Assembly: GCA_012517475.1 (NCBI GenBank)
Contig: JAAYUV010000007.1
Location: 1-40,210 of the forward strand
Direction: 5' to 3'
Length of the DNA stretch: 40,210 bases
Origin: Peptococcaceae bacterium
GTDB taxonomy: Bacteria; Bacillota; Desulfitobacteriia; Desulfitobacteriales; Syntrophobotulaceae
Numbering within the stretch: the first letter of the stretch is position 1; the number at the start of each line of letters is the position of its first letter. This document shows positions 30,709 through 39,894 of this stretch, in pieces. A program made the position numbers and the translations under genes. The notes under the pieces are model-generated. The model had not been told where the DNA came from and did not search any database. It saw nothing but the letters and a program-made list of their open reading frames with translations.

Positions 30709-30900
30709 TTATCTTCCCATCGCCCTAAACGCTAAAATATCACCTCTGGCTTCATAGAGCTTTTCCTTAAAGACCATTTTGAACCAAGCTGTCCTGTTCC
30801 GGGTGGGTGGATACTGATTAAATTTATCGTAAACCTTGCAGACCGCCACAATCATTTCATTTTTCTCATAACCGTGTTCTTCAGCCAGCTGGGTGGCATG
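30709..30900 (-). pseudogene. C-terminal fragment of an unrecognised protein
   Basis: An open frame of 63 codons, starting right after an in-frame TAA at 30901 and ending at TAA 30709. It reads HATQLAEEHGYEKNEMIVAV, then CKVYDKFNQYPPTRNRTAW, FKMVFKEKLYEARGD and ILAFRAMGR. The balanced, non-repetitive composition and a terminator-like hairpin beyond suggest real coding sequence rather than chance. It has no start with a ribosome site, and at its 5' edge it abuts the dynamin remnant on the opposite strand. I do not recognise the family; a basic, helical C terminus is all that can be said. Confidence 0.4.
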
Positions 30901-32222
30901 TTATCATTCGTCATCCTGCTGCTTTTCTAGGAAAGGGAATCATCATCGTAGACACTCCGGGAACAAACTCTCTTCAGACCCTCAATACCGAAGAAACATT
31001 GGCTTTTCTGCCGAAAGTTGATTCCGCGATTTTTCTTTTATCCGCCGACCAGCCTATAAACCAGGAAGAGCTGAGTCTTCTGGAGATGCTCAAGACTACA
31101 ACCGCCAAAATATTTGTTGTTTTAAACAAAATTGACCTCCTTTCTCCGGAGGATTTAGCTGAGTCGGTTGAATATTGTACAAACATCCTACGAAATGTAA
31201 TGGCCGATGCTCAAATCCTACCCGTATCTTCACGCTGGTATTTGGAAGGAAGAAAAAAAGAATCCGGTATTGTTTCCCTGAAAGAAACCCTGGAATCCTT
31301 TTTTAAAGACGCTCAGCATGAAATTGAATTAAAGAGCAGCATCATCCGTTGTCAAAAGATATTGACCCTCAAGCGGGAACAGGTTGCCCTAGAAAGAAAA
31401 GCGGTCGAATTATCCTCGCTGGAACTGGCTGAAAGTATCAAACAATTCCAGACTTTCAAGGATGAAATTAAAGAAACGAAGCAAGATTTCAGGCATATTA
31501 TCAACGGACAGACGAAATTAGTCCAGGAGCAAATGACAAAACAAATTGAAGACTTTCGCCAAGAAAAAAGCTTTAAACTGACAAGAGAAATAAAACAACG
31601 ATTCAATAATCACGGTACGCTCAAGGAAGTTCAGTCCTATTCTTTTGCCCGTATTTATGAAGAGCTTGAAAGCCTTAGACCTATCGTTTCGGAGGAATAT
31701 CATGAACGCACCAGGCTGCTCTTGAAAAGGCTCAGTCAGGAAGCGGAAGAACTTTCTTCGCATATCACCGCCGTTGGCGGAAAAGTACTCAAGACTAAAG
31801 TTACGGTAGAATTGCCTGAACCGGTCTTTACCAATAACAATACGCTGGAGTATTTCATCGAAAAAGCTGTCGGCTTGGTTCCTTTTAATTTGGAAGATGC
31901 AGTATCAATTCTTCCCTGGTCCTTAAGCAAAAACATTATCGTAAACCGGATCAGTGAAAAAGCCATTCAACTAATGGACAAAAATTGCGGGAGGATCAGG
32001 GCCGATATCGCGGAACGGCTGGCTGTAGCTACCCGCAATTATATGGAACTATGGGAAAGTGAGCTGGATAGAATAGTCCGGTTGATCGAGTCGGCGATAG
32101 AAAAGGGAATTCAAATGCAAGAAGATACTCTCAAAAGGGATGAATGGCAAACGGATTTAAATAATAGAGAAGAAAAATTAAATTCCATCGCTGACAAAAT
32201 ACAATTCCTTCTTGAAACTTAA
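30900..32222 (+). pseudogene. Dynamin-like GTPase lacking its P-loop (5'-truncated)
   Basis: The frame begins abruptly with VIIRHPAAFLGKG, then IVDTPGTNSL (G3 motif) and NKIDLL (G4 motif), followed by about 300 residues of helical stalk with coiled-coil character, including a hydrophobic segment near the middle typical of bacterial dynamin-like membrane-remodelling proteins. The GKSS/T P-loop (G1) and switch I (G2) are missing, so nucleotide binding is lost or crippled. No ATG exists upstream in frame; the first possible start is TTG at 30999, after the G3 motif. Length of about 440 residues compares with 550-600 in intact homologues. The MFS gene follows 27 bases later. Confidence 0.75.
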
Positions 32223-32249: not shown

Positions 32250-33470
32250 GTGAAAATCGAAGACAAACAAAACATCATTGTATTTAATATTAAAAAATCA
32301 GCCGTTAAGTTTATCCTCCTTTTTGGAATTGTCAGCGCCTTTGGGGACATCACCTATGAAGGAGCCCGAAGCGTCTATGGACCTTTCCTCGGATATTTGG
32401 GAGCTAGTGCAATGATTGTCGGCCTTATATCCGGGATTGGAGAATTCTTGGGATACATATTAAGATTAGCATCGGGATATTTCGTCGACCGTACCCAAAA
32501 ATACTGGCTGGTTACAATCCTTGGATACGGATTGCTTATCTCCGTACCCCTTTTAGCGATAGCAGGCAGGTGGGAAGTTGCCGCTTTGTTTATTATCCTG
32601 GAACGCACCGGGAAAGCAATCCGAAGTCCAGGCAAAGACGCCATGCTCTCGCACGCCACAAAACAGGTAGGTACAGGCTTGGGATTCGGAATTCATGAAG
32701 CACTGGATCAATTAGGCGCTGTTCTTGGTCCTTTAATCTTTACGGCGGCTCTAACAGCCACAGGGGGTTACAGTCTGGGCTTTAGTGTTATGTGGCTCCC
32801 GGCCTTGATAACAATAATCGTCATTTTAATAGTCCGGATGAAGTTTCCCGAACCCAGAAAAATGTTTGAGGATACTTCCGTTCAGATTCAATCTGCAACT
32901 ATATCTGCAAAACCATTTTCCCAGACATTTTGGTATTATTCGCTATTTACTTTTATCAGTGTTCTAGGTTTCGCCAACTTTCCGATTATTGCTTATCACC
33001 TGAAAGTTCAGGGAGTGATACCGGAAGCACAAATTCCTACTCTTTATGCTTTGGCCATGGCGATTGATGCAGTAGTGGCCTTGGTTATTGGCAAAACTTA
33101 TGACAAAATCGGTTTGCTTTCCCTCATTAGCATACCAATACTAACACTTCCGATCGCCTTTTTGGGTTTCTCCTCTAACGCTCCTTCTGTTATCGTTGGC
33201 GTGATTCTTTGGGGAGCAGTGATGGGAATACATGAAACCATCATGCGCGCCGCCATAGCGGATATCACCGACAGCAGTCAAAGAGGAAAAGCCTACGGTA
33301 TTTTTAACACCCTTTATGGTTTTGCTTTACTGATTGGAAGTTCAGCCATGGGTTTCTTATACGATATTTCCATTGCCAGTGTCTATCTATTTATTTTGGC
33401 TGCGGAATTATTAGCCTTTTTTGCCTATTTCTATTTGAGAAAAACGCCAGGAAAAAGTCAAAGTAAATAG
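32250..33470 (+). CDS. MFS transporter
   Basis: A 406-residue major facilitator with 11-12 membrane helices. Seen are GDITYEGARSVYGPFLGYLG in the first helix, a basic motif-A-like loop after helix 2 (GYFVDRTQKY), RTGKAIRSPGKDAMLSHAT in loop 4-5 and a central loop near residue 210. The GKAIRSP region resembles a subgroup of putative drug/solute exporters in anaerobes. The start is GTG at 32250, with AAAGGGTG upstream. It follows the dynamin remnant and may share its transcript. Substrate is unknown. Confidence 0.87.
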   Translation: MKIEDKQNIIVFNIKKSAVKFILLFGIVSAFGDITYEGARSVYGPFLGYLGASAMIVGLISGIGEFLGYILRLASGYFVDRTQKYWLVTILGYGLLISVPLLAIAGRWEVAALFIILERTGKAIRSPGKDAMLSHATKQVGTGLGFGIHEALDQLGAVLGPLIFTAALTATGGYSLGFSVMWLPALITIIVILIVRMKFPEPRKMFEDTSVQIQSATISAKPFSQTFWYYSLFTFISVLGFANFPIIAYHLKVQGVIPEAQIPTLYALAMAIDAVVALVIGKTYDKIGLLSLISIPILTLPIAFLGFSSNAPSVIVGVILWGAVMGIHETIMRAAIADITDSSQRGKAYGIFNTLYGFALLIGSSAMGFLYDISIASVYLFILAAELLAFFAYFYLRKTPGKSQSK

Positions 33471-33487: not shown

Positions 33488-35008
33488 TCAATTCATTGCG
33501 AAATTTTCCGTTTCAAATACCCTGTTATACAAATCCCCGCCGAAACTCGTTTGTAACGGTTCCCCTTCTTTTAATTTGAAAGTCCTTGCTCCGTCCGGCT
33601 CCCTTTCGGCACGCAGAAAGAGAGCGTTTTCCTTTCCCTGCAGGTATAAACCGTGGGCGAACTCATACAAATGGGTCACGGAGTAGACCTTGATTGCCCT
33701 TTCCACTAAAGCGCAGGTTATCTGCCTGGCGATTTCCGCTCCTTCCCTTTCATTGGTCGCGGCAAATGATTCGTTAAACAGCAACAGGCTGTTTGCTGTT
33801 ATCTTGTCAGCGATAGCATTCATTCTGCTGAGTTCTTCATCAAGTTTCCCGCTGTTCATGGCAGTATCTTCCTCCCGTTTATAATGCGTAAAAATGCCCT
33901 CGCAAACATTGGCGGAAAACATTTCAGCTGGCACAAACATCCCGCATTGCATCATCAATTGAGCGAGACCAATGCTTCGTAAAAAAGTAGACTTGCCGCC
34001 CTGGTTCGCTCCGGTGATGATGACAAGGTCAATGTTTTCGGCATCCAGAGTATTTCCCACCGTTTTTCGGTCCAGTGTCAACGCCAGGCACACATCATAC
34101 AATCCCTGAAAAACATGGCAGCGCTGGTCGGCGCTTACGGGAACGGGGAAACAAACCGGTTCTCCCTTCTGCGCAAGTTGTTCCTGCAAATTCAGACAGC
34201 CGATGTAAAAAGCCAGTTCGGTTTGCAGCATGGTAAAAAAACTAAGAATATGGTCGGCGGACTGGGCGAGTGCATTGGCAACCAGGTTGAGCCCCCTGTC
34301 TTTTAAATCCGACAAGGCCCTGAGCCCGCTCTCATCCCGGTCGTATATAAAATACGTGTAGCCTGCCAATTTGTTGGCAAAGATCCGCTCCAGCCACTCT
34401 ACAAAACTTTGTCTTTTCCCTTGCCCTTTACGCAGGATATAATTGGTTCCTTTATTGCCTTGACCCAATTCGGCGCTGATCAAAATTCCGTCACGAAATT
34501 CCATTTCCTTAAGATGGTCCTCAACGGCCGTAAAATATTCCTCGGTCAGTTCTTGCTTGAGCATGGAAAAAAACGTTTGAAAGCCCTCAGCCTCAAATTC
34601 GTCCGCATGTTCATCGGCAATACGTCTTAACTTTTTTAGCATATTCATGAACATCCCTAAAACGTCTAACGACCTATGCACAATGGCAGTGCTGTATCTG
34701 CTGAATATGCTTAAATAGTTCTTTTTCTCGTTTTTTATCGCTTCGCCTACCAAGGCATAGATATCCCTGATAACCTCGGGATTTTTCAGACAGTCCTTCA
34801 GAATATCCTGGCGGTAAAAGATTTCACTAAGATCAGTTAAGCTCGACAGAACCGCTTTTGAAACGACTTCCAATATTAACTTGTCTCCCAACCCCATGGC
34901 TTGAAACAGAGTGTTTAATTCCAGGTCTTGGGTCAGAGCTTGTTCGTTCCAGGGCAATTGCCGTCCCAGGTCAAAGTCCCGGTCTTTATACATGAGAAAA
35001 GCCTTCAT
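33488..35008 (-). CDS. MutS-related ATPase, second of a pair
   Basis: A 506-residue protein containing the helical core (about 30-300) and ABC-type ATPase domain of MutS without the mismatch-binding domain. The P-loop GANQGGKST is at about 330, then MFVPAEMFSAN, the signature-like SGKLDEELSRM (about 385), Walker B LLLFNESFAATNEREG (about 410) and SVTHLYEFA (about 445). Such MutS-like pairs occur in anaerobes and have been listed among fluoride-riboswitch-controlled genes; their job is not established. ATGA overlap with the upstream mutS-like gene shows co-translation. It appears complete and is the end of the leftward fluoride-type array. Confidence 0.88.
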   Translation of the reverse strand: MKAFLMYKDRDFDLGRQLPWNEQALTQDLELNTLFQAMGLGDKLILEVVSKAVLSSLTDLSEIFYRQDILKDCLKNPEVIRDIYALVGEAIKNEKKNYLSIFSRYSTAIVHRSLDVLGMFMNMLKKLRRIADEHADEFEAEGFQTFFSMLKQELTEEYFTAVEDHLKEMEFRDGILISAELGQGNKGTNYILRKGQGKRQSFVEWLERIFANKLAGYTYFIYDRDESGLRALSDLKDRGLNLVANALAQSADHILSFFTMLQTELAFYIGCLNLQEQLAQKGEPVCFPVPVSADQRCHVFQGLYDVCLALTLDRKTVGNTLDAENIDLVIITGANQGGKSTFLRSIGLAQLMMQCGMFVPAEMFSANVCEGIFTHYKREEDTAMNSGKLDEELSRMNAIADKITANSLLLFNESFAATNEREGAEIARQITCALVERAIKVYSVTHLYEFAHGLYLQGKENALFLRAEREPDGARTFKLKEGEPLQTSFGGDLYNRVFETENFAMN

Positions 35009-36183
35009 GATTTTATCCGCTCCTTTAAACAGTTGTAAGTTAGCCCGTACTTTTCGGCAACTGACAAGGCGTAGGAAAGTCCGTCAGCCTGCCTTCTGAT
35101 AATTTTATAAGTCCTTAAGGCCGGATTTTCTAGAACGACCGTGCTCACCAGGCTTACCGTTTTCTCGTTGAGAGAAGCCAATTCATCCAGGAACGTCACA
35201 CAAACACACAGCAAATCCAATTCGGTTATTTTTCCGATGATCTGTTTGCTCAGAAAAACGGCATCCTGTAACGTTGTGGAAGTAAAGATCTCATTCATGA
35301 TGACCAGGCTGTTGGGCGTAGCGTTGTTTAATATGGCGCGAATCCTCAGCAAATCATCTTGAAGTTTGCCGTTCAGGTTTTGAATTTTTTCTTCCCGTTC
35401 AAAATGAGTAAAGAGCCTATCTGCCAGAAAAAGCTTGGCTTCACGGCCAGGCACGGGACAGCCGATAGCGGACAGATAATGCAGCTGCCCGAAGGTGCGG
35501 GCGAAAGTTGTTTTCCCACCTTGGTTGGGACCGGATACTACAAAAATCCGCTCCTGGCCTTTCAGGTAAAAATCGTTGCAGACAACAGAGGAGTCTTCTG
35601 TAAGGAGTTTATAGGCCAGGGCCATATCGAATCCATCATGACTGTAAATTTCCTTGCAGGCAGCGGAAACCTGGGGATAACAGAACTTTAATCCAGCCTT
35701 TCGGAATAAGGATATGTGTTCCAGATAGGCAAGATAAAATTGTATTTCCCGGTCAAAAAGACCGATGGTCTCATTGAGGTAATTACTGTTGATTGTGCAA
35801 TAATGATCGAGAGATACGAAAATATCTGGATACAGTTTGGCCACCAAATCCAATATTCCGGCTTCAACATGGTTCATTTCCACCCCGGTTGAGAATTTAA
35901 TTTTATAATCTTTTACCGCACCCTGCCGGAATTTCGCAAAGGTTTCCTCCACTTCCGCGCTGTAGTCTTTTTCCGATTCATATTTACGCACATGAATGCC
36001 AATGGCGTTTTTACGCAGGGTCCTTCGGCCTTCGATTAACAAGCAATATTGCACAGTGGACAGAGCCGCCTTCAGCTTCTCCGTTTCCGTCAGAAGCGAA
36101 ATAAAGCGCTCCGATTTCACGTAATCTCTAAGATATTCCCGGAAAGCCAAAAGGCCACGGGCCTTTAAATCCACGGCTGCCAA
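35005..36183 (-). CDS. MutS-related ATPase, first of a pair, 5'-truncated
   Basis: A 392-residue frame with P-loop GPNQGGKTTFA (about 223), NLNGKLQDDLLRI (about 275), Walker B LVIMNEIFTSTT (about 299) and a C-terminal LSYALSVAEKYGL. The first residues, DLAAVDLKARGLLAFREYL, correspond to an internal part of full-length family members (about 550-580 residues), so roughly 160 N-terminal residues are missing. The frame opens right after a TAA, and the only start is a TTG at 36183. Just upstream a ribosome-site/start pair (GGAG, GTGTCTGAGAG) runs out of frame into the gene, as expected for an out-of-frame deletion. A fluoride-type riboswitch precedes it. Confidence 0.8.
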   Translation of the reverse strand: MAAVDLKARGLLAFREYLRDYVKSERFISLLTETEKLKAALSTVQYCLLIEGRRTLRKNAIGIHVRKYESEKDYSAEVEETFAKFRQGAVKDYKIKFSTGVEMNHVEAGILDLVAKLYPDIFVSLDHYCTINSNYLNETIGLFDREIQFYLAYLEHISLFRKAGLKFCYPQVSAACKEIYSHDGFDMALAYKLLTEDSSVVCNDFYLKGQERIFVVSGPNQGGKTTFARTFGQLHYLSAIGCPVPGREAKLFLADRLFTHFEREEKIQNLNGKLQDDLLRIRAILNNATPNSLVIMNEIFTSTTLQDAVFLSKQIIGKITELDLLCVCVTFLDELASLNEKTVSLVSTVVLENPALRTYKIIRRQADGLSYALSVAEKYGLTYNCLKERIKS

Positions 36184-36264
36184 ATCATCCTGTTACTCTC
36201 AGACACCTCCAGTTCCCCGTCACGCTAAAGGCATAATTTCTTTAAATAATCGTTAAAAACATAG

Positions 36265-36348
36265 AAAAAGACCGATGATCTCTACTTTTCCCGTAGAAGC
36301 CATCAGCCGTTTCAGCGGTTCGGATTATCCCAGGGAGCTTCATCCCTT
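36265..36348 (-). ncRNA. Fluoride (crcB-motif) riboswitch 2 with terminator
   Basis: On the minus strand the RNA begins with stem GGGA(TGAAGC)TCCC (36333-36346), then AACCGCTGAAACGGCTGATGG (given here as P3 and the conserved CTGATGG) and CTTCTAC. The P1 loop GAAGC can pair with GCTTC (36297-36301), the pseudoknot that defines this class. The same GATGGCTTCTAC arm then forms a terminator with GTAGAGATCATC, ending in CTTTTT at 36265-36270, so ligand-bound and terminated folds exclude one another. Odd: the P1-P3 linker is about 12 bases with a small GGGATAATCC repeat, longer than the usual few bases. It controls the mutS pair. Confidence 0.78.
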
Positions 36349-36423
36349 TTTACTAACCTTTTATTAACCTTTTACCAATTACCAAGAATATAGCACTTTC
36401 TGTTTTCGCCCACAAGAAAATTA

Positions 36424-36894
36424 TCAGCGCCTCAAGGTGGCGATTAAACGTTTGGGGTTAAATAACAACTCAAAAGCGTCTTCTATCTTTTTTACAGCAA
36501 TATCCGCCCTTAGTAACGTTTCGGGGCTGCATCCTTCGGGACCAATAATAGCGATTGAAAGGTCCGCTGTTTCAAACATGAGCTTATCGTTGGCGCCATT
36601 TCCGACAGCTACAATTTTTCCGGTGCCGAGATGCTTTAAATACTCCGCTTTTTCCTGGGTATGTTTTTCACTCTCCAGTTTTTTTATGGTAACCGGCAAA
36701 TCGGCGCACTCTTGGGCGACGGAGCCGAAAGTGTCGGACGTAAGGATATGGATGGTGAATTTTTTTGCCAAAGCGCGGATATATTCCCTGGTTGAAACGG
36801 AGATCCTGCCATCCAAGGCCAGCGTCCCGTTATAATCAAAAACAAGCGTGCTTAAGTTCAACACTTTCCAGCCCGGAATGTCTATAGTCAGCAT
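36424..36894 (-). CDS. HAD-family small phosphatase (P-type ATPase P-domain-like)
   Basis: About 156 residues from the ATG at 36894 (GGAGG seven to eight bases upstream). Motif I is FDYNGTLALDG with nucleophile Asp20, and an Asn where most phosphatases have the second Asp, as in the soluble 'P-type ATPase-like' HAD group. Motif II is LTSDTFG (about 50) and motif III/IV is GNGANDKLMFETADLSIA (about 98-115). It probably hydrolyses a phosphate monoester or regulates something; substrate unknown. It lies between the enolase remnant and riboswitch 2 in the fluoride-type array. Confidence 0.85.
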   Translation of the reverse strand: MLTIDIPGWKVLNLSTLVFDYNGTLALDGRISVSTREYIRALAKKFTIHILTSDTFGSVAQECADLPVTIKKLESEKHTQEKAEYLKHLGTGKIVAVGNGANDKLMFETADLSIAIIGPEGCSPETLLRADIAVKKIEDAFELLFNPKRLIATLRR

Positions 36895-36932
36895 GACAAT
36901 CCTCCAATTACAAAGGCTTTCCACCTAAGCGA

Positions 36933-37647
<715 letters not shown>

Positions 37648-37797
37648 GGTTTTACCCTCCTCTAAAACAATATGAGGGAAGAAGTGCTGAAATAGTCAGA
37701 TGCTGATCTATGGTTTTATATCTTATGAAAAATATTGGTGGAAAGCCTCTGCCTACACCATAAATCTCTTAAGCAGCAATAACAAGTCTGCAAAATG

Positions 37798-38139
37798 TCA
37801 CTTCTTGGATGCAGAGTATTTGATGATCTCTATATCCTCAATGGTAATCAGTCCTTCATTCACCGCTTCATCCAGGAATGGCATAATCTTCTCGATGTAC
37901 TCCAGACTATCGACAATATCAATTACAATGGGAAGATCACCGGAAAGTTCAAGTATTCTTGCCGTCTTTATCCTGGAATTGGCTCCGAAGCCTTCTATCC
38001 CTCTCAATACCGTAACCCCTGCCAAGCCAAGCTCTTTAGCTTTCAGAACTATGGCATGGTACAATAATGTCCCTTTATATTTGGTTGCTTCACCAATATA
38101 AATACGGATTCTACGGGCTTGACCAGAAATTTTAGTCAT
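37798..38139 (-). CDS. DUF190-family protein (CrcB-associated)
   Basis: A protein of about 113 residues with a ferredoxin-like/PII-like alpha-beta fold: RRIRIYIGEATKYKGTLLYH, KELGLAGVTVLRGIEGFGAN and DLPIVIDIVDSLEYIEKIMP match DUF190. Family genes are habitually next to, or fused with, crcB fluoride channels, and the protein may regulate or sense for them. No crcB is present here. The ATG at 38139 is chosen as it has GAGGAG seven bases upstream; the ATG at 38145 is too close to that site. Confidence 0.9.
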   Translation of the reverse strand: MTKISGQARRIRIYIGEATKYKGTLLYHAIVLKAKELGLAGVTVLRGIEGFGANSRIKTARILELSGDLPIVIDIVDSLEYIEKIMPFLDEAVNEGLITIEDIEIIKYSASKK

Positions 38140-38218
38140 ATCCATACTCCTCTTCTTAACAAGTATAGTACAGACCTGTCCAAAAAATGTCCGACAATCA
38201 AAACTAAGACCCAAAATT

Positions 38219-38644
38219 TTACTCTTTTACAACCATAACCGGTACCTTGGAATAGCTCACTACTTTTTGAGCGACACTACCGATGACAAGCTTTTTAAAA
38301 CCACCCACACCTCTCGTTCCTATCACAATGAGATCAAATCCGTTTTCCTGGGCGTAATCAATAATTTTCTCCACCGGATGACCATGGATAATTAATGTTT
38401 GGAGTTTAATGCCTTCTTTTTGGGCTGATTCGGCAATCTCTTTGTGCATGGGCACAATCCGTTTTTCCGCCTCGTCCATGACTTCGCTTACCTCATCCAT
38501 ACTTGAACTAAAATCCGGCAAGCGTACAACCGTTAAAACGGTAACCGAGGAATTGAGTTTAGCGCTTAAACTTTTCGCGTGCTCCAACGCCTTTTTACTG
38601 CTGGGGGAACCGTCGAAACCCACAAGAATCTTATTCATTTCCAT
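38219..38644 (-). CDS. UspA-family universal stress protein
   Basis: A complete 141-residue UspA protein: KILVGFDGSPSSKKALEHA at the N terminus, the ATP-binding motif GTRGVGGFKKLVIGS (about 110-124) and the terminal strand SKVPVMVVKE. It is very similar to residues 1-137 of the chimeric copy at 37099-37647, so the two came from one duplication. ATG at 38644 has AAGGAGGG about nine bases upstream and overlaps the antiporter end by 14 bases; a longer start at 38683 lies inside that gene. Confidence 0.92.
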   Translation of the reverse strand: MEMNKILVGFDGSPSSKKALEHAKSLSAKLNSSVTVLTVVRLPDFSSSMDEVSEVMDEAEKRIVPMHKEIAESAQKEGIKLQTLIIHGHPVEKIIDYAQENGFDLIVIGTRGVGGFKKLVIGSVAQKVVSYSKVPVMVVKE

Positions 38645-39794
38645 CGTTAGACCCTCCTTGTAAAACTTGTTCTTGGAAAACATTTTTCGGGAAGAAGAAT
38701 TTCTGAGCGATCAGGGTCGGTATAACAGCACTGAGAATGACGACTGTTACAATGACACTGTATTGTGAATTGCTGATATACTTATTTGTTAGCCCATATA
38801 AAGCTGAAATCGTTCCGAAGGTCAGTCCTGTGCTCATGAGAAGGGTGGTATAGATCCCATCCTTTCCTTTGTATTGAAAGAACCTGGTTGCAGGAAGCAC
38901 CCCGATAAATTTTGCGGCAACTTTGACCAGTAACAAAATTAAAATTAAGGAAAGCGTTGTGGCAATGGCCTTAACAGAGACAAGGGAACCCGCTTTAATA
39001 AAATAGAACGGCGTAAACGCTACAAAGGCTATCGCCCGCATCTTATAAAGCGTTTCTTTATATTGCAGGAAAAAACCTGCCATAGCCAAGCCGATAATGT
39101 AAGCGGGAAGCACCGCCTCGCTGCCGGAATATTCCGCAAGGAACCCTAAAAACAGAAGGATCAGCAGGACAAATTTAATTTCCGGTTCACTGACTTTCCC
39201 GCTGTATCTTGCAAAGATCCATTTTGCCAGTGGAATTCCAGCAAAACACACCACAATGACTGCTCCGACAAAAATAAGCAATTTGTAAGAAAATCCTGTA
39301 AAGAGGAATCCCAAAGCCAAGACCGTACCTAAATCCGTAACGAAACAGGCTGCCAGGATCGACTGTCCAAAAGAAGTAGAGCTTAATTTGCTTTCAACCA
39401 TTACTGCATAAACAACAGCGACTGAAGTGGTAGATAAAGCAATTCCGGCAATTTTTGCGGCATTTACATCCCAACCAAGAAAATAAAAGGCTACAAGCAT
39501 ACCTAACGCAAAAGGTAGCAGGAAGGAAAGCAAGCCAATAACCACACTTTGTTTGAGGTTCTTTTTCAGGCTGGCGGGATCAATCTCCGCGCCCGCTAAA
39601 AAGGTCAGTATGACGGAACCCAGGCTGGCTAAAAAATTGACCCAGTCTGTTATCTGGAGATGAATAATGTTACCTGCCACCACGCCGACCAGGATTTCAA
39701 TTAATGCAAGAGAAATCCCTAAACGAATTGAAATAAGACTGGCTATAAAGGCTAAAAGTATCCAGATTGTTGCAATCAAGAAAGTGTTGTCCAT
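38631..39794 (-). CDS. CPA2-family cation/proton antiporter
   Basis: A 387-residue protein with 12-13 predicted helices of the Kef/NapA type, ending in a short soluble tail; there is no TrkA/RCK domain, unlike full KefB/C. The transport core motif is AACFVTDLGTVLALG (about 150), followed by EIKFVLLILLFLGFLAEYSG and GLAMAGFFLQYKETL. It probably exchanges Na+ or K+ for H+. Sodium/proton antiporters are among the genes reported under fluoride riboswitches, and a typical one lies directly upstream of this gene (39815-39890). AGGAGGA is 12 bases from the ATG, a slightly long spacing. Confidence 0.9.
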   Translation of the reverse strand: MDNTFLIATIWILLAFIASLISIRLGISLALIEILVGVVAGNIIHLQITDWVNFLASLGSVILTFLAGAEIDPASLKKNLKQSVVIGLLSFLLPFALGMLVAFYFLGWDVNAAKIAGIALSTTSVAVVYAVMVESKLSSTSFGQSILAACFVTDLGTVLALGFLFTGFSYKLLIFVGAVIVVCFAGIPLAKWIFARYSGKVSEPEIKFVLLILLFLGFLAEYSGSEAVLPAYIIGLAMAGFFLQYKETLYKMRAIAFVAFTPFYFIKAGSLVSVKAIATTLSLILILLLVKVAAKFIGVLPATRFFQYKGKDGIYTTLLMSTGLTFGTISALYGLTNKYISNSQYSVIVTVVILSAVIPTLIAQKFFFPKNVFQEQVLQGGSNDGNE

Positions 39795-39814
39795 TACAAG
39801 TTACATCCTCCTCT

Positions 39815-39890
39815 TGAATAAAAATAAAAACTCCTACCTGAAAGGTAGGAGCCATTAGCCTGATGCATTTGCGAGCCCCATCGCAAGGAT
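39815..39890 (-). ncRNA. Fluoride (crcB-motif) riboswitch 1 with terminator
   Basis: Minus-strand RNA: P1 stem TTGCGA(TGGGGC)TCGCAA (39869-39886), a short AAATGC linker and P3, then GCTAATGGCTCCTACC. This follows the fluoride riboswitch consensus GGCGATGGxxTTCGCC..AAACGC..GCTAATGACTCCTAC closely. P1-loop GGGGC pairs with GCTCC (pseudoknot, one G-U). The CTCCTACC arm alternatively forms the hairpin at 39831-39851, which is followed by TTTTTATTTTTATT on the minus strand: an intrinsic terminator. So fluoride binding would free the terminator arm and switch on the antiporter gene. Confidence 0.92.
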
Positions 39891-39894
39891 TTTT

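Follow-up and report, generated by a model that had tools for sequence, protein, structure and literature searches.

A fluoride-stress island in probable decay and its paired MutS-like ATPases in a Peptococcaceae draft genome

Introduction

Can a row of genes placed under fluoride-type riboswitches protect a cell when no fluoride exporter stands among them? This question is raised by a 40,210-nucleotide stretch of DNA from a Peptococcaceae bacterium (GenBank assembly GCA_012517475.1, contig JAAYUV010000007.1, positions 1 to 40,210), referred to here as the window, in which a leftward array at 33488-39890 holds a cation/proton antiporter gene, two uspA genes, a DUF190 gene, enolase sequence, a gene for a small HAD-like protein and a pair of genes for MutS-like ATPases. 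A first-pass annotation had read this array as a fluoride-stress operon without crcB or ClC-F, its exporter being either elsewhere or lost, or its protection being afforded by another route, including ion homeostasis and the replacement of inhibited enzymes. Taken as a whole, we consider it likely that the window contains an eroding fluoride-stress island, in which two switches control an antiporter arm and a MutS arm, that the crcB genes reside elsewhere and that the MutS-like pair, MutS-a and MutS-b, forms a core clamp.

A gene list for the fluoride riboswitch was reportedly given in Baker 2012. Genes found behind the crcB RNA include, in a passage of PMC2864571, mutS, K+ or Cl- transport and formate hydrogen lyase genes, and, in the excerpted part of a review (PMC11139923), exporters, antiporters, pyrophosphatase, HAD proteins and enolase, so that the annotated match to published fluoride-riboswitch genes is upheld by those parts of the two sources. 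Since the occurrence of MutS, antiporter, enolase and HAD genes downstream of crcB RNA is already published, the array is best described as an eroded example of a known island type. As regards mechanism, the annotation was right that no role of the MutS-like pair in fluoride resistance is known, no paper on one being found among the matches listed in a search that left subscription literature mostly outside; the association of mutS itself has been in print since 2010, and among the matches listed 'crcB motif' and 'MutS' occur together only in PMC2864571.

Fluoride exporters outside the window

As annotated, neither crcB nor ClC-F is present in the window. The proposed search of the complete draft genome (3.68 Mb in 115 contigs, 3.78% contamination, the window being contig C73) bore out the option that the exporter lies elsewhere: two CrcB genes score over the PF02537 cut-off, on contigs C4 and C71, and there was no match to voltage-gated ClC. 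Each crcB lies ~80-105 bases behind a fluoride-type aptamer of its own (scores of 28.9 and 31 bits, neither of which reaches the Rfam RF01734 gathering cut-off of 34 bits). After the C4 crcB comes a DUF190 gene, which encodes a protein 85% identical over 113 amino acids to the window DUF190 protein. A genome devoid of both CrcB/Fluc and ClC-F, as expected for exporter-free resistance, is therefore not what was found; because of the two crcB genes, 'without an exporter' describes the window correctly and the genome wrongly, and the suggestion that the array works without one is not supported. Near the crcB at the end of C71, tyrosine-recombinase-like and transposase-like open reading frames (ORFs) were seen by eye (L064, 5210-7008).

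Two switches with overlapping terminators

Four RNA elements were delineated on the minus strand of the window:

36287..36356, minus strand: fluoride riboswitch aptamer rs1, upstream of the MutS-like pair (RF01734, 43.4 bits, above the cut-off of 34)
36270..36308, minus strand: intrinsic terminator hairpin of rs1, overlapping the aptamer 3' strand (fold -20 kcal/mol, z -3.57)
39839..39894, minus strand: fluoride riboswitch aptamer rs2, upstream of the antiporter gene (RF01734, 28.8 bits, below the cut-off of 34)
39829..39853, minus strand: intrinsic terminator hairpin of rs2, overlapping the rs2 3' strand (fold -15.9 kcal/mol, z -3.85)

The two annotated riboswitches are thus retained on unequal terms, rs1 by its Rfam score and rs2, despite falling below the cut-off, because it reaches 49.3 bits (E 5.5e-13) with the lineage model R2 and has a terminator of its own. 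R2 was derived from 14 aligned aptamers, including rs1 and both crcB switches and excluding rs2; it comprises the first hairpin only, since the RNAalifold structure of model R1 held a doubtful second hairpin, and, being lineage-specific, may miss some switches. The core of rs2 is the same as in the other three switches of the genome. Within the 14-aptamer alignment, the first hairpin and pseudoknot are paired in 126 of 126 cells, with both-side changes in 5 of 9 pairs; none of 500 shuffles was equally paired and slid controls gave 44-58%. The first-hairpin and pseudoknot pairs of rs1 are all standard, a compensatory A-U in the pseudoknot included. A T run follows the terminator hairpin at both rs1 and rs2, and this arrangement of aptamer and terminator is the usual one for a transcription-ON switch that is predicted to bind fluoride.

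Probable erosion of the array

ORF and family searches confirmed the leftward array, with antiporter, two UspA, DUF190 and HAD-like proteins and two MutS_V proteins as annotated; what did not hold is the intactness of 'enolase', which consists of two remnants, and of MutS-a, which is truncated:

38631..39794, minus strand: CPA2-type cation/proton antiporter, full length (PF00999, 3.7e-43)
38219..38683, minus strand: UspA 1, directly after the antiporter (PF00582, 2.6e-35)
37798..38214, minus strand: DUF190 protein (PF02641, 9.2e-36)
37099..37647, minus strand: UspA 2, fused in frame at its end to an enolase remnant in one ORF (PF00582, 5.6e-32; PF00113, 5.6e-11)
36933..37145, minus strand: enolase C-terminal remnant in another frame, mapping to residues ~363-425 (PF00113, 3.4e-28)
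36424..36924, minus strand: small HAD-like protein with the motifs DYNGT and GNGAND (PF08282, 20.5 bits, just under the cut-off of 20.9)
35005..36183, minus strand: MutS-like ATPase a, truncated, without ~125 N-terminal residues compared with homologues (PF00488, 2e-20)
33488..35008, minus strand: MutS-like ATPase b, full length, with a 4-base overlap with gene a (PF00488, 8e-21)

The enolase part fused to UspA 2 corresponds to residues ~154-194 and lies in a different frame from the C-terminal remnant, so that no complete two-domain ORF is present; a complete enolase gene is found on contig C103. Because the window gene is broken, the proposed replacement of inhibited enzymes fails for enolase. 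At the MutS-a junction, rs1 and a GGAGG site are retained, an in-frame TAA lies just upstream and translation could first begin at a TTG ~21 bases from the GGAGG; two close MutS-a homologues align to the window protein from residue 142-143 of their longest ORF, equal to residue ~126-127 from a conserved likely ATG.

The conserved set extends past the annotated array to two further genes:

32250..33470, plus strand: MFS transporter, convergent with MutS-b (PF07690)
30900..32222, plus strand: dynamin-like GTPase remnant, without ~140 N-terminal residues

The GTPase remnant is 42% identical, from residue 147 on, to a 597-residue ORF (L046, 2473-4266) of a Desulfosporosinus metagenome-assembled genome (G039), where the full-length dynamin-like GTPase stands directly behind a fluoride switch, and a second homologue (L045) carries PF00350 Dynamin_N. 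With enolase in two remnants, MutS-a and the GTPase truncated at their N-termini and crcB elsewhere, the locus is read as an eroding island and not as an intact exporter-free operon. Like known RF01734 regulons, it has the aptamer core, pseudoknot and overlapping terminator, with antiporter, UspA, DUF190, enolase, HAD and mutS-like genes downstream; it differs from them in that its exporters are at other loci and that enolase, MutS-a and the dynamin-like GTPase are eroded.

A paired family with the MutS core

Both window proteins resemble MutS1, MutS2 and KamC in having the MutS core and a domain V ATPase with a Walker A motif. In contrast to these, MutS_V is their only Pfam domain, mismatch-recognition, connector and Smr domains not being found in either, and they stay below every curated cut-off: the MutS1 model TIGR01070 gives 74.6 bits for b and 69.1 bits for the truncated a (cut-off 641.7), the MutS2 model TIGR01069 70.7 and 72.7 bits (cut-off 400) and the KamC reactivase ATPase model NF052383 70.8 and 42.5 bits (cut-off 300). 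An identity with KamC was rejected on these scores, the cut-off also being reached in 0 of the 73 genomes sampled in the order, where most NF052383 hits, with ORFs of ~790-880 residues, are judged from frame length to be probable MutS2 or MutS1 proteins. PADLOC returned only a marginal NsnB match for MutS-b (E 9.1e-4).

The predicted structures (mean predicted local distance difference test score 81.1 for b, in which residues 173-223 are of low confidence, and 85.5 for a) both match MutS1, MSH and MutS2 structures, with Z 22-30 and a root-mean-square deviation of 3.7-9.5 over 290-453 residues, mainly through the lever core and the ATPase domain. Model b aligns to Escherichia coli MutS from about residue 260; for model a the first aligned residue varies between 156 and 270 with the entry. 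A further difference from MutS1, MutS2 and KamC lies in the Walker B motif, which reads Asn-Glu, with Asn for Asp, in 48 of 48 aligned a rows and 47 of 49 b rows; the separate MutS1-like and MutS2-like genes of the same genome encode Asp-Glu. The structural matches include 3k0s, a solved structure of E. coli D693N, and, according to a section of PMC3848065, the 693-696 motif of E. coli MutS stabilises a Mg-bound water, and substitutions there abolish ATPase activity and inactivate repair. The lack of recognised mismatch domains and the Asn in Walker B, together with these substitution effects, make it unlikely that the pair is a mismatch-repair protein, and we conclude that it probably is not.

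The 'mutS' of the fluoride regulon, listed as DNA repair since 2010, can accordingly be refined, for this lineage and relatives, to a paired MutS-core family that has no recognisable mismatch-recognition domains, shares a conserved change in Walker B and occurs almost exclusively with fluoride sensing in the phylum sample described below. An old loose end thereby becomes directly testable, namely the job of a MutS-like clamp in the fluoride-stressed cell.

Recurrence in other genomes

The conservation of neighbours, which the first-pass annotation had asked to be checked, was examined at three levels, and most genes of the set recur beside fluoride switches elsewhere. In the order-level sample (73 genomes, MutS-a threshold E 1e-30), RF01734 occurs in 30 genomes and MutS-a in three, with four copies that are all behind a fluoride switch; the three genomes have 12 (Desulfosporosinus sp. 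PR, G017), 8 (G039) and 4 (the window genome) fluoride RNAs. The islands of G039 (contig JAIMKP010000038, L084) and G017 (contig NZ_JAVHUW010000076, L093) share with the window the order switch, MutS-a, MutS-b as well as DUF190 and MFS genes, their MutS-b proteins being 70% and 67% identical to that of the window over the full length. G039 also has the antiporter-UspA genes and the dynamin-like GTPase, and in G017 an enolase gene adjoins a DUF190 gene; the window MFS protein is 64% identical to that encoded on contig C10 of G017, likewise convergent with MutS-b, and the window antiporter is 74-75% identical to those of G039 (L045) and of genome G040 (L056). Unlike in the window, MutS-a is full length in both Desulfosporosinus islands and the GTPase is full length in G039, and crcB-like ORFs were seen by eye in both.

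At the level of the phylum (398 genomes, own genome included), RF01734 was found in all 18 genomes with full-length MutS-b, compared with 138 of 380 others (p 2.5e-8; 6.5e-8 without the own genome; 11 families). Among the matches listed, a switch lies on the MutS-b contig in 11 of the 18; in 7 of these it precedes MutS-b on the same strand by 1.3-1.9 kb, at the place where gene a starts, in 2 by 2.9-5.0 kb and in 2 none is upstream on the same strand.

Finally, a scan of named genomes confirmed at least 541 MutS-b relatives, whose record titles name many phyla, and the best 80 were analysed as loci. Thermoanaerobacterium strains are among the bearers of the pair. Here, the family differs from MutS1, MutS2 and KamC in being a tandem of two different subunits, gene a being followed by gene b at 78 of the 80 loci (with a 4-base overlap in 56 of the 78); gene a passes 490 aligned residues and set length bounds in 66 of 80, several others ending at contig ends. 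Neighbours, counted in the fetched stretches only and clustered by BLAST at 50% coverage, with the enolase and CrcB cluster labels assigned by eye, were enolase (26 loci), MFS (23), dynamin-like GTPase (17), CPA2 antiporter (14), CrcB (11), UspA (10), DUF190 (8) and HAD (4). RF01734 is present in 37 of the 40 genomes that hold the first 40 loci.

A model and its alternatives

In the proposed model, Mg-bound fluoride would bind rs2 or rs1 and the overlapping terminator would not form, induction being suggested by the anatomy of switch and terminator. With rs2 on, transcription would run into the antiporter, UspA and DUF190 genes and beyond, and with rs1 on, into MutS-a and MutS-b. From the reviewed literature, the antiporter may compensate for the acid that HF brings into the cell. 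Export presumably falls to the two crcB (Fluc) genes, each at a separate locus elsewhere in the genome and with its own fluoride switch. Enolase, the 5' part of MutS-a and the 5' part of the dynamin-like GTPase would have been lost by deletion. In intact relatives, MutS-a and MutS-b would most likely form an ATP-driven heterodimeric clamp with the MutS core and no mismatch recognition, and the Asn-Glu Walker B suggests weakened Mg coordination and hence slow or switch-like nucleotide use; such a clamp might free or remodel a target that is blocked during fluoride stress. A more specific proposal, to which we attach little confidence as a whole, is that the pair is a distinct fluoride-associated heterodimeric MutS-core ATPase in which Asn-Glu in both subunits lets the clamp cycle while Mg-fluoride-ADP traps ordinary P-loop enzymes, and that, much as a reactivase (KamC as annotated) or ribosome-associated MutS2 would, the pair sets free a client blocked by fluoride.

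Several observations weigh against the island and clamp model. An R2 switch (E 0.01) is found in the fetched stretch of only 50 of the 80 loci and directly upstream of gene a (at most 310 bases before it) in only 30 of the 70 loci with at least 300 bases fetched, so that the link between MutS pair and switch is strong and not universal; three of the 40 genomes above have no RF01734 match, inclusion of four genomes with partial MutS-b and no RF01734 changes the phylum count to 18 of 22 versus 138 of 376 (p 4.6e-5), and related genomes in these counts are not independent. MutS-a, one partner of the predicted heterodimeric ATPase, is truncated in the window itself. The deletions, moreover, rest on the single draft assembly, in which misassembly could have occurred.

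An intact exporter-free operon that protects by another route would fit the absence of crcB and ClC from the window and the functional appearance of both switches; given two crcB genes with fluoride-type switches in the genome and the truncation of enolase and MutS-a, it is highly improbable. That the deletions arose in the draft assembly, with the island intact in the living cell, is quite unlikely: contig number, contamination and three truncated genes in one stretch are compatible with it, and against it the joins look clean by eye, the MutS-a join is still preceded by the switch and a ribosome-binding site, adjacent genes have kept their full length and the order of MFS and MutS-b is a conserved one. 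The MutS-like pair could also be a DNA-repair device induced since stress damages DNA, as suggested, along with the occurrence of mutS behind crcB RNA, in a passage of PMC2864571 before the ligand was known, and the MutS core fold of the predicted models agrees with this. We regard it as doubtful in view of the restriction of both proteins to MutS_V, with neither mismatch-recognition nor connector domain, the late start of their alignment to E. coli MutS, the replacement of Asp in 95 of 97 Walker B rows, in a motif that the cited section of PMC3848065 describes as needed for MutS ATPase activity and repair, and the presence of separate MutS1-like and MutS2-like genes.

Further observations on the gene set

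UspA 1 and UspA 2 are 85% identical at the amino acid and 81% at the DNA level, the latter of which points to duplication. The HAD-like protein has Asn at two usual Asp positions (DxNGT, GNGxND), and the idea that these adapt it to fluoride, as a counterpart of the Walker B change in the MutS pair, was entertained and rejected: the Asn motifs are probably a family trait, since they occur in all 24 proteins readable by pattern (30 loci, window included; 6 unread) and since 42 of the 106 genomes with HAD homologues (among the 398, own genome counted) have no RF01734. The RNA is nevertheless enriched in HAD genomes (64 of 106 versus 92 of 292 others), and one relative (L143) has DFTGT in place of DxNGT.

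In G039, a membrane H+-pyrophosphatase gene (PF03030; L044, 9086-11098) follows a sub-cut-off fluoride switch, with MoxR-like and DUF58-like ORFs, recognised by eye, next to it; such ORFs also lie near some MutS pairs. The same genome carries a GGGtGRT protein gene (PF14057) and a partner gene behind a fluoride switch, divergent from the MutS pair (L045, 2596-4307, minus strand), and both genes are again found behind such a switch in G017 (L048, 9458-11199). A mir-873 match in the Rfam scan was taken for chance.

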